DNA of 64,000 nt, taken from contig NZ_CP014862.1 in the NCBI RefSeq assembly GCF_002214585.1, positions 806,001 through 870,000 on the forward strand, given 5' to 3'. The notes below the pieces were generated by a model. It searched no databases, was not told where the DNA came from, and was given only the letters and a program-made list of their open reading frames with translations. Every line of letters begins with the position of its first letter. Within the stretch, counting starts at the first letter, position 1. Source of the DNA: Thermococcus profundus (GTDB lineage Archaea > Methanobacteriota_B > Thermococci > Thermococcales > Thermococcaceae). Position numbers and translations under genes: made by a program. Positions 56,945 through 60,135 of this stretch are shown here, piece by piece.

Positions 56945-56956
56945 AAGGTGCAAGCC

Positions 56957-57493
56957 ATGAGGCCCGTTGTTATCAAAGGTGACAGGGTCAGCCTGGGAGT
57001 GCTCACAAGGGAGGATCTCCATACCGTCTGGAAGTGGTACAACGACAGGAGGGTGAGAAGGTACCTCTCCTTCCCTCACGAGGTCTTCTTCTACGAGGAT
57101 GAAATGGAGTGGTATGAAGCCATAAGGCGGGAGAAGAGCAGGGAGAAGGTCTTTGCCATCGTGAAAAACGAGGAAAAGACCCTTGTGGGGTTGATAGGCC
57201 TCCACAACATCGACCTCTACAGCAGGAACGCCGAGCTCGGCTACTTCCTTGGCCCAGAGCACTGGGGGATGGGGTACGCGACGGAGGCTGTTTTTCTGGC
57301 CGTCAGATACGCCTTCGAATGGCTTAACCTGAGGAAGCTCTATGCTAGGGTTTTTGAGCCCAACGTCCCCTCCAGCAGGATCCTTGAGAGGAACGGCTTC
57401 ACCCTGGCTGGAAGGCTCAGGGAGCACCAGTACGTACCTGGAAAGGGCTTCGTTGACGTCCTCCTCTACGAGCTGCTTCGTGAGGAGGTGTAG
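56957..57493 (+). CDS. GNAT-family N-acetyltransferase (RimJ/RimL-like)
   Basis: 178 residues. Acetyl-CoA site in LGPEHWGMGYATEAVFLAVR, with the preceding strand LVGLIGLHNIDL and the later ARVFEPNVPSSRILERNGF. Likely acetylates a protein N-terminus or a small amine; substrate unknown. ATG 56957 follows AAGGTG. The stop is 4 bases before the start of the channel gene, so they are co-expressed. Confidence 0.88.
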   Translation: MRPVVIKGDRVSLGVLTREDLHTVWKWYNDRRVRRYLSFPHEVFFYEDEMEWYEAIRREKSREKVFAIVKNEEKTLVGLIGLHNIDLYSRNAELGYFLGPEHWGMGYATEAVFLAVRYAFEWLNLRKLYARVFEPNVPSSRILERNGFTLAGRLREHQYVPGKGFVDVLLYELLREEV

Positions 57494-57497
57494 GGAC

Positions 57498-58946
57498 TTG
57501 TGTGAGTACGTCTACGCCAACGGGAAGAAGTGCAGGCTGAAACCGCTGGAGGGCTCGAAGTTCTGTCCTCTCCACGTTCCCTACGAGGAAGGAGAGTCCC
57601 TTTTGGGTGATGGGATAAGGGAGATAAAAAGGAAAAAATTCGAGGAGAGACTCAAAGCGGGGAGGTCATACTTTGAGGGCGTTTATCTCTACGATGCCGT
57701 CGTTAAGGATTTCAACTCAGAGAAAGCCATTGTGTTCAAAAACTCCCATGTGAAGACCCTCATCATTGAAGGCTCCACTCTGAAGGGTCTGATAGTGGTG
57801 AACTCAAAGATAGAGCGGGTAATAATCTTCGAGACGAAGGTGGAGATGCTCTTCTTCAAAGGGTCCGAGATATTCGGTCTCAACATCCTTCGCGTTGATT
57901 TCACCGGCCACATCTCCATAAGAGACTTAGAGGTCAGGTACCTCATGATAAACTCCACCCGATACGTCAGAGACGGTGAGGGCGGAGAAGAAGAGGCTTA
58001 CGGTGAAAAGAAGGGCATCATCGGAACTATAGAACTCTCGGGCCTCAAAAACGTTAGGAGAATAGGAATCAACACGCGGTATCCCCTTCTCAGGAAGATA
58101 TTGGAGGAGCACGGTGTAAGCGTCTCCGAGAACCGTGAGCGCATGGTAAGGGTGGTGTCCCTGATCCTGAGGGACGTGAGCTTCGACGTTTCCCCCCGCT
58201 TTAAAAGGCAGGTCAGACTTGCCGTAAGCGGCCTCTCCGGCCAGCTGGTAATGGAGAACCTTGAGGTCTTCGGCCATGTGGAGATACGGAGGAGCAGGCT
58301 CAGATCACCTGAGTTTATACACGTGAGGATCGAGAGCAACCTGATCCTGAGGGGATCATCCTTTATAGCGGACCCCTCGTGGAACATAACGGTACTGCCG
58401 AACCTGCCGATAGAACTCATCATTGGCGGTTTTATGATCGTTGAGGACTGCGAGTTCAGCAATCCCCACGCGGCTGAGGTCTTCTACCGCCTCGCCAGAA
58501 CGAGCTGGGAAAGGAGCGGGGATTTCGAGAAAGCCGATGAGTACTACTATCTTGAGATGGTCGCTAAAAGAAAGATAAAATCCCTTGGGCGGAGAAGAGG
58601 GTGGAGGAAGATACTTCAGAGGCTTGAGGTCGCCTTCGAGTGGCTCTTCGCTGATTTGACCTGCAAGTACGGAACCGACTGGAAGAGGCCCGTTATAATC
58701 TGGATCATTGCAGTCAACGTGCTCTTTCCGATCCTCTTTTACGCGACGGAAAGCGTGGAGGGTATCTCTGGGGCAATGGGATCCCTGGACTACGAATACT
58801 TCAGCATAGTCACTGCCACCACCCTCGGCTACGGAGACTACCACCCGATAGGTGTTGGCAGGGCCATCGCCTCCCTTGAAGCGCTCTTCGGAATGTTCAT
58901 GTGGGCGGTATTCCTCACGGTCTTCGCGAGGAAGTACATGAGGTAG
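57498..58946 (+). CDS. Potassium channel with N-terminal Cys/His knuckle and beta-helix-like domain
   Basis: 482 residues if started at TTG 57498, which follows GGAGGTG by 7 bases; GTG 57480 is the alternative. Residues 1-30 hold a possible zinc knuckle (C at 2 and 11, then CPLH). Residues 60-330 are regular short strands (VKTLIIEGSTLKGLIVVNSK, IERVIIFETKVEMLFFKGSE) like pentapeptide/beta-helix repeats. A helical linker leads to a two-helix channel: TM1 VIIWIIAVNVLFPILFY, filter TTLGYGDYHP, TM2 SLEALFGMFMWAVFLTVFA. The filter is that of K+ channels. The soluble part probably gates the pore; its signal is unknown. Confidence 0.82.
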   Translation: MCEYVYANGKKCRLKPLEGSKFCPLHVPYEEGESLLGDGIREIKRKKFEERLKAGRSYFEGVYLYDAVVKDFNSEKAIVFKNSHVKTLIIEGSTLKGLIVVNSKIERVIIFETKVEMLFFKGSEIFGLNILRVDFTGHISIRDLEVRYLMINSTRYVRDGEGGEEEAYGEKKGIIGTIELSGLKNVRRIGINTRYPLLRKILEEHGVSVSENRERMVRVVSLILRDVSFDVSPRFKRQVRLAVSGLSGQLVMENLEVFGHVEIRRSRLRSPEFIHVRIESNLILRGSSFIADPSWNITVLPNLPIELIIGGFMIVEDCEFSNPHAAEVFYRLARTSWERSGDFEKADEYYYLEMVAKRKIKSLGRRRGWRKILQRLEVAFEWLFADLTCKYGTDWKRPVIIWIIAVNVLFPILFYATESVEGISGAMGSLDYEYFSIVTATTLGYGDYHPIGVGRAIASLEALFGMFMWAVFLTVFARKYMR

Positions 58947-58989: not shown

Positions 58990-60135
58990 ATGACGGAGAA
59001 AAGACTAAGAGTGGGCCTCGTAGTCAATCCCATAGCCGGAATGGGGGGAAAGGTGGCCCTAAAGGGAACCGATGGCGTTGTCGAGGAGGCTATAAGGCGT
59101 GGGGCCAGACCAATCGCCCCCGACGTGGCGAGGCTTTTTCTGAACGAGCTCAGCAACTACGAGGAAAATGAGCGGATAGAGTTCCTGACGGGCCCTGACG
59201 GACTCGGTGAGGATATAATACGGGAGTTCGAGTTTCCCCACGAGGTCATAATGCACAGGGAGATAGGCTACCGGGAGGTTCTGGGAGTCAAAATTCCTGA
59301 CACAAGCGGCGACGATACGAAGGAGCTTGTAAGAAGGATGCTCGGAGCGGTTGACATCATAGTCTTTGCCGGCGGTGATGGAACCGCCAGGGACGTCCAT
59401 TCCGTTGCTGACAAAAAAGTTCCGATCCTCGGTGTGCCGACCGGTGTAAAGATGTTCTCCGGGGTCTTCGCGGCTTCTCCAGAGGACGCAGCGAGGCTCG
59501 TCGTCGAGTTCCTCAAGGGAAACGCGGAGCTTGTCGAGAGGGACGTCATGGATCTCGACGAGAACGCCTTCAGGCACGACGAGGTGAAGCCGAAGCACTA
59601 CGGAAAAGCCCTGACGCCCTACGCGGAGCTGCTCCTCCAGGGCGCTAAGGAGCCCACCAAGACCGACGAGGCAGAGGACGCGGATTCCATGATACGGGCC
59701 CTCGCGGAGGAGCTTGAGGACGGCGTTTACTTCCTGGGGGCAGGTTCAACGGTCAAAAAACTAAAAGATCTCCTCGGCATAAACGGCACTCTCCTGGGCG
59801 TCGACGTTGTTGAGATAAAGGACGGGAAGGCGAGGCTTCTTGTTAAAGATGCGGCCGAGAAAGACCTCCTGAAGTTCGTTGACCGGAATCCAAAGATAGT
59901 GGTCACCGTTATAGGCGGGCTGGGCTTCCTCTTCGGCAGGGGCAACCAGCAGTTCTCGGCGGAGGTTCTGAGGCACATACCCAAGGAGAACATCATAGTC
60001 GTCGCCACGCCCTCAAAGCTGAGAAACGGCATCGTGAGGGTCTATACTGGGGATAAGGAGGTCGACGAAAAGCTCAGAGGGTACATGAAAGTCCGCGTTA
60101 GCCCCTGGATGGAGAGGATGGTGAAGGTGGTTTGA
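58990..60135 (+). CDS. ATP-NAD kinase-like protein (AcoX group)
   Basis: 381 residues. NAD-kinase/diacylglycerol-kinase fold with LVVNPIAGMGG at the N-terminus, FAGGDGTARDV as the GGDGT motif, and GVPTGVKMFSGVFA. Longer than NAD kinases proper and of the COG3199/AcoX type, whose substrate is not settled. TATA-like elements are weak; the gene lies 43 bases after the channel gene. Confidence 0.8.
   Translation: MTEKRLRVGLVVNPIAGMGGKVALKGTDGVVEEAIRRGARPIAPDVARLFLNELSNYEENERIEFLTGPDGLGEDIIREFEFPHEVIMHREIGYREVLGVKIPDTSGDDTKELVRRMLGAVDIIVFAGGDGTARDVHSVADKKVPILGVPTGVKMFSGVFAASPEDAARLVVEFLKGNAELVERDVMDLDENAFRHDEVKPKHYGKALTPYAELLLQGAKEPTKTDEAEDADSMIRALAEELEDGVYFLGAGSTVKKLKDLLGINGTLLGVDVVEIKDGKARLLVKDAAEKDLLKFVDRNPKIVVTVIGGLGFLFGRGNQQFSAEVLRHIPKENIIVVATPSKLRNGIVRVYTGDKEVDEKLRGYMKVRVSPWMERMVKVV

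Follow-up and report, generated by a model that had tools for sequence, protein, structure and literature searches.

We begin by asking how a potassium channel could be opened or closed when its large soluble domain lies ahead of the pore. The gating of prokaryotic potassium channels is usually framed in terms of RCK, voltage-sensing, Kir-type and cyclic-nucleotide domains. One gene in the window (the whole stretch of 64,000 nucleotides of Thermococcus profundus DNA that was analysed) very probably encodes a potassium channel, and its product begins with a Cys/His knuckle, followed by a predicted beta-helix, then by a helical hairpin and a slide helix, and last by a two-helix K+ pore with the filter TTLGYGD. 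The features of the locus are as follows.

56948-57493, + strand: GNAT acetyltransferase gene, upstream; its stop lies 4 nt before the channel start
57484-57489, + strand: ribosome-binding site GGAGGT, 8 nt 5' of the TTG start, overlapping the end of the acetyltransferase gene
57498-58946, + strand: channel gene, 482 aa, TTG start, TAG stop (58944-58946)
57498-57581, + strand: Cys/His knuckle, residues 1-28, C2-x9-C12-x10-C23-x2-H26; pLDDT about 90
57582-57668, + strand: helical cap, residues 29-57 (AlphaFold2 helices 29-36 and 39-53)
57669-58451, + strand: predicted beta-helix, residues 58-318 (AlphaFold2), with a clear 10-residue repeat in 58-152
58464-58586, + strand: helical hairpin linker, residues 323-363 (AlphaFold2), common to the pentapeptide paralogues; the HalA profile extends into it
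58602-58682, + strand: slide helix before TM1 and YGTDW turn, residues 369-395 (AlphaFold2), very conserved
58683-58748, + strand: TM1, residues 396-417 (AlphaFold2; Ion_trans_2)
58782-58838, + strand: pore helix and selectivity filter, residues 429-447, with TTLGYGD at 441-447 (58818-58838)
58854-58940, + strand: TM2, residues 453-481; the protein stops here, without a C-terminal RCK or cyclic-nucleotide domain
58990-60135, + strand: NAD-kinase-family gene, downstream (Pfam NAD_kinase, E 8.5e-21)

The gene and its setting

The coordinates 57498-58946, as given in a sequence-only reading of the window, are correct, with TTG at the first position, GGAGGT upstream and the stop codon at the end. 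The TTG start is supported because nearly all orthologues begin with MCEY at the same position of the alignment. The upstream neighbour varies, the GNAT gene adjoining the channel in only 7 of 30 loci, while the NAD-kinase-family gene lies 3' of the channel in all 30 (flanks up to 1.5 kb) and in 17 of 20 loci with flanks of 0.5 kb. We read this arrangement as a core chromosomal setting and not as a defence island.

The pore and the elements that lead to it

The two-helix pore with TTLGYGD, already claimed from the letters, is borne out by the profile scan and by the alignment. Pfam Ion_trans_2 covers residues 404-480 (E 1.3e-11, 44.6 bits against a cut-off of 22.5), and in the 49-row alignment (A1) T441, T442, G444, Y445, G446 and D447 are invariant and L443 is nearly so. 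AlphaFold2 predicts helices at 323-340 and 343-363 (the hairpin), 369-389 (the slide helix), 396-417 (TM1), 429-442 (the pore helix) and 453-481 (TM2), and by these boundaries a single residue remains past TM2; the profile scan gives no TrkA (RCK) match in the protein. Pore and knuckle aside, the hairpin and the slide helix are among the best conserved parts. Within the genus, the median identity is 73-78% for linker plus slide helix against 56-59% for the beta-helix, as would be expected of a coupling element.

MthK-type RCK channels share the 2TM K+ pore with the window protein, as does the RCK channel of the same genome (L001), which has TrkA matches. In RCK channels, however, the RCK domain follows the pore and pulls TM2, whereas in the window protein TM2 is the end of the chain and the large domain comes before TM1. 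KirBac channels and inward rectifiers have a pore fold close to that of the window protein (rmsd 2.4-2.7 Å over 89-90 columns, in several rows of the comparison), and KirBac has a slide helix before TM1 as is predicted here. The cytosolic domain of Kir channels is immunoglobulin-like and C-terminal, and the window protein differs from them in being without a C-terminal domain.

The knuckle

The Cys/His cluster named in the sequence-only reading is present, although its spacing had been given as C-x8-C-x9-C-x2-H, which is off by one in two places; the sequence gives C-x9-C-x10-C-x2-H. None of C2, C12, C23 and H26 varies when the window protein is aligned with 47 orthologues (48 of 48). This set leaves out L004, which duplicates the window, two split genes (L048, L049) and the divergent L054; in alignment A1, whose 49 rows take in L054 as well, the four residues stay invariant. 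As a background, a knuckle-like pattern occurs within the first 60 residues in none of 54 window ORFs and none of 143 ORFs from ten control stretches, in a scan that used an upstream ATG for the window channel and so missed the channel itself.

What kind of knuckle might this be? The Pfam profile zf-C3Hc3H gives 11.8 bits for the window protein, below its cut-off of 27, and E 0.0032 for the best relative tested; there is no match to a WRC model. The spacing is identical to the CX9CX10CX2H of the plant WRC domain, which is described as DNA-binding (PMC7380329). This equality is a lead rather than a proof. We take the knuckle to be of the C3H type and a putative zinc site.

The beta-helix

The short repeated strands that had been noticed by eye correspond to a beta-helix predicted at residues 58-318, mostly at pLDDT over 90. 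It had been said that the idea would fail if no such fold were predicted, and the AlphaFold2 run (a monomer, with 49 aligned sequences) does predict it: strands span residues 58 to 316, the mean pLDDT is 85 and the pTM 0.76, and block means of pLDDT are 92-97 over the greater part of 58-290, falling off near 160-172, 200-220 and 290-305. The hydrophobic autocorrelation at a lag of 10 is 0.39 in residues 58-152, a value reached by none of 2000 shuffles, and 0.14 over the whole of 58-318 (p 0.008); the second half alone (215-318) has no significant period of 10 (p 0.24, shuffles).

In VIA-align the model matches phage tailspike beta-helices (Sf6, Z 16.3) and, over 218 residues, the pentapeptide protein HetL (Z 15.8), differences of this size being ties. 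On present sequence evidence the domain is probably a diverged pentapeptide-type solenoid, a reading that follows from the canonical pentapeptide proteins among its homologues of the same domain order. The earlier description of the domain as pentapeptide-like is carried by the structure prediction and by the canonical repeats in homologues, but not by the window protein's own repeats, which have no Pfam pentapeptide match at E<=10. The net charge of the beta-helix is about neutral to slightly basic (mean +3.9 in 48 sequences), so nucleic-acid binding is not favoured by charge.

A broad family of channels

Does the same order of domains exist in other proteins? The search that had been proposed for it finds, at the level of sequence, that the order is common to a broad, widespread family and not unique to the window gene. 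Within the Thermococcaceae, 75 of 94 genomes have a full-profile match (positions 1-481, counted by hand) and in 5 more (G010, G069, G080, G082, G088) there are strong matches that are partial or split. The other 14 are without a match that strong, although 9 of these have a listed completeness of 90% or more. No full-length match occurs in the 21 non-Thermococcaceae genomes of the phylum search. In three genomes the orthologue is split into two open frames (L048 and L049, in G069 and G080, and also G088); these are either pseudogenes or sequencing errors.

The T. profundus genome itself holds a second knuckle channel, L002, with textbook pentapeptides (Pentapeptide E 2.4e-44), and other relatives of the same order score likewise (L055, 4.1e-18; L060, 9.7e-32). 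Homologues with this domain order are found among Thermococcus paralogues, Caldisericota, Thermoplasmata, Archaeoglobaceae, haloarchaeal plasmids and Aeromonas. The Caldisericota protein L100 has a knuckle very like that of the window protein (Pentapeptide_3 E 5.2e-39). In the genome-wide scan the knuckle is present in the Thermoplasmata proteins L102 and L104 and in L105 of the Archaeoglobaceae and absent in L110 of the Omnitrophota, the remaining rows being fragments or pore-only matches. Twenty loci give 21 paralogue ORFs; the knuckle is present in 17 of these and missing from 4, and TTLGYGD occurs in 19. A looser pattern finds the knuckle in one record from Aeromonas caviae and 11 from haloarchaea, out of 16 records of the plasmid collection that were hand-picked from three match lists, so that 12/16 is no unbiased rate; the knuckle is absent in both cyanobacteria, in Aureimonas and in one Haladaptatus. 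In L125 and L131 it begins upstream of the annotated start. The two plasmid-collection records scanned, L124 and L133, have both pentapeptide and Ion_trans_2 matches over the cut-off.

Proteins on archaeal plasmids that are annotated as "pentapeptide repeat-containing protein" or "potassium channel family protein" share with the window protein, in those 12 of 16 records, the knuckle ahead of a soluble domain and the C-terminal pore region. They differ from it in that the window repeats are too diverged for the Pfam pentapeptide models, and in that some of them are without a TxGYGD filter where the window protein has TTLGYGD. The K+ filter is altered or missing (e.g., TLGLGD, TLSYGD) in the haloarchaeal L130, L132, L125 and L143, whose ion selectivity, judging from these residues, may be different.

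Several further forms stand beside these. Two long solenoid-like paralogues (L064:975-2954 and L065:997-3096) have a helical linker and a pore-like C-terminus with ALVTSDPY in place of TTLGYGD, and no knuckle; they are possibly non-conducting partners or other membrane sensors. Genome G074 carries two knuckle channels in tandem (L054:1366-4261), one of them intermediate between the window type and the pentapeptide type. An unannotated knuckle-pentapeptide channel of Aeromonas caviae (L124:3551-4504) lies between a response-regulator/TPR-like frame before it and an exonuclease-III-like frame after it, both named by eye. In a pore-and-linker tree of 38 rows the deep branches are weak and several branches are very long, and no argument here rests on it. 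The family is apparently undescribed: by titles and abstract openings, literature searches on the channel side or on HalA return no paper on these channels, and the KCTD9 papers found concern animal KCTD proteins and not a channel pore.

The relation to HalA

The closest studied channel that we find is HalA, the DNA-repressed effector of Hailong, a bacterial anti-phage system, and the relation appears distant, a weak but specific likeness in the profiles. Hailong is described as making single-stranded DNA oligomers that suppress its own effector (PMC12657230), and poly-dA adducts of HalB are described as blocking the HalA channel (PMC13275509). Like the window protein, HalA has a large N-terminal domain, a linker and a C-terminal 2TM K+-type pore. 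Among the orthologues of the window channel the Cys/His knuckle is invariant, and no HalB over the cut-off is found in the phylum.

At E<=1, 42 of the 49 orthologues match the NCBIfam HalA model NF051894 (best E 4.6e-8); 3 of 15 pentapeptide paralogues match it too. In the window protein it aligns residues 327-481 to model positions 191-337 with 15.3 bits, far below the cut-off of 250. Among the relatives it gives E 6.3e-7 for L002, 1.1e-5 for L102, 0.013 for L045 and 0.075 for L110, with no match in L100, L104, L105 or the RCK channel L001 (for L001, none at E<=1). The Kch model PRK10537 matches 49 of 49 orthologues, in the window protein over only 18 residues at the filter. In Foldseek, HalA with oligo-dA (PDB accession code: 9nyi) ranks second for the window model, a borderline match (322 columns, E 3e-3, probability 1.00, TM 0.41 by target length), its neighbours in the ranking being a designed solenoid and AlbG, a pentapeptide protein; no match reaches E<=0.001. 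HalA is absent among the 50 VIA matches listed for the window model, among the top 50 structural matches for the paralogue model, among the matches listed (60 of 280) in the full-length profile search, and, where PDB sequences were searched with a linker-only and an N-domain-only profile, from the three matches that either profile gave.

The HalB model is over its cut-off in none of 115 genomes; 97 of them have weaker matches, mostly of about 20-35 residues at the start of the model. PADLOC gives no match for any of the 4 channels tested. The HalA score lies a long way under its cut-off and none of the 115 genomes has a HalB above the threshold, and on these grounds we reject membership in Hailong. 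A viral origin is also rejected, with no phage record for the window protein and none for the paralogue profile. The Aeromonas relative has one phage record, where the match is to a pentapeptide protein and spans 28% of the query, and four viral contigs match in the pore only.

A hypervariable paralogue locus

At one Thermococcus locus a knuckle-pentapeptide channel sits between an amino-acid-kinase-family gene and a Pyr_redox gene. Nine of ten neighbourhoods are syntenic, the reference included (L144-L152, e.g., L148:6322-7800), and L153 is not; against the reference, the flanking genes are 92-98% (kinase family) and 93-95% (Pyr_redox) identical. The channels there combine a hypervariable beta-helix with a knuckle and a pore that hardly change. 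The median identity of the paralogues is 93% in the pore (120 pairs of 16 paralogues, not all of them shown to lie at the syntenic locus) and 72% in the linker. In the beta-helix, whose length runs from 272 to 628, it falls to 35% (78 pairs of 13 sequences, 3 being omitted where the linker pattern was not found). In the T. profundus genome the site is empty, the flanking genes lying 150 bp apart (L167, between 6770 and 6921). In this genome, the window gene has the look of a housekeeping channel, not of a defence effector.

A proposed mechanism and its alternatives

We think it probable that the window gene encodes a K+-selective 2TM channel that is regulated from the cytosolic N-terminal side by a knuckle-capped beta-helix. 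Of the mechanisms considered, gating by the N-terminal domain is the most likely, an inference drawn from three points: the sole soluble domain precedes TM1, the hairpin and slide helix are highly conserved, and HalA has its own controlling ligand. By analogy the channel would be a tetramer, with the soluble domains presumably in the cytosol. The zinc-type C3H knuckle would cap the pentapeptide-type beta-helix, and four such helices would form a ring, or a crown in the term used for HalA, below the membrane. Ligand binding to this crown, or ligand release, would move the hairpin and the membrane-parallel slide helix, and this movement would open or close the TM1/TM2 pore, in whichever direction. 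As there is no C-terminal domain, the force would have to reach the pore by way of TM1, unlike in RCK channels, where TM2 transmits it. A nucleic acid or a nucleotide is our leading guess for the ligand.

A HalA-like immune channel, which a nucleic-acid ligand keeps shut until an invader removes the ligand, whereupon the pore opens and the cell is de-energised, would account for the specific HalA similarity in most orthologues and the second rank of HalA in Foldseek; the hypervariable beta-helices and the empty site at the paralogue locus would also fit an arms race. For the window gene we nevertheless regard it as unlikely, given the low HalA score, the lack of a HalB over cut-off in 115 genomes and of any PADLOC match, the near-universal presence in Thermococcaceae, the adjoining NAD kinase gene and a fairly conserved helix.

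The soluble part might also have no gating role, beta-helix and knuckle being a scaffold by which a leak or osmotic K+ channel, open constitutively, is tethered to another protein or to the membrane. Pentapeptide solenoids often serve as protein-binding surfaces, and the beta-helix is the least conserved large part of the protein. Such a scaffold seems improbable to us in view of the invariant knuckle and of how strongly the hairpin and slide helix, which join the solenoid to the pore, are conserved. The neighbouring gene suggests yet another reading, in which the channel senses a redox or nicotinamide signal together with the co-located NAD kinase, the Cys3His site acting as a redox switch or a sensitive zinc site. 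The NAD-kinase-family gene directly 3' of the channel, constant or nearly so in both sets of loci within the family, and the three invariant cysteines speak for it, but co-location alone makes no functional link and the residues are spaced as in a zinc finger, not as in a disulphide pair; we consider this very unlikely.

A wider picture than regulation from the N-terminal side is speculative, with some modest chance of being right. A large archaeal family of ligand-gated K+ channels would carry a zinc-knuckle-capped beta-helix as sensor; a conserved branch, with the window gene, would read a cellular nucleic-acid or nucleotide signal, and a hypervariable branch would serve as immune or self-recognition channels, the solenoid remodelled between species and the pore kept fixed, with HalA as a bacterial offshoot.

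The sequence-only reading had spoken of a new gating module. The architecture of knuckle, beta-helix and pore stands; its novelty is reduced, as it is common to a broad family and the layout of HalA is distantly similar. If the N-side solenoid does gate through the slide helix, this would be another route of gating, of which HalA already gives a hint. Structural work could draw on the thermostable proteins of the family, and with a widely varying sensor beside a constant pore the family forms a natural series in which the coupling of sensor and pore is directly testable.
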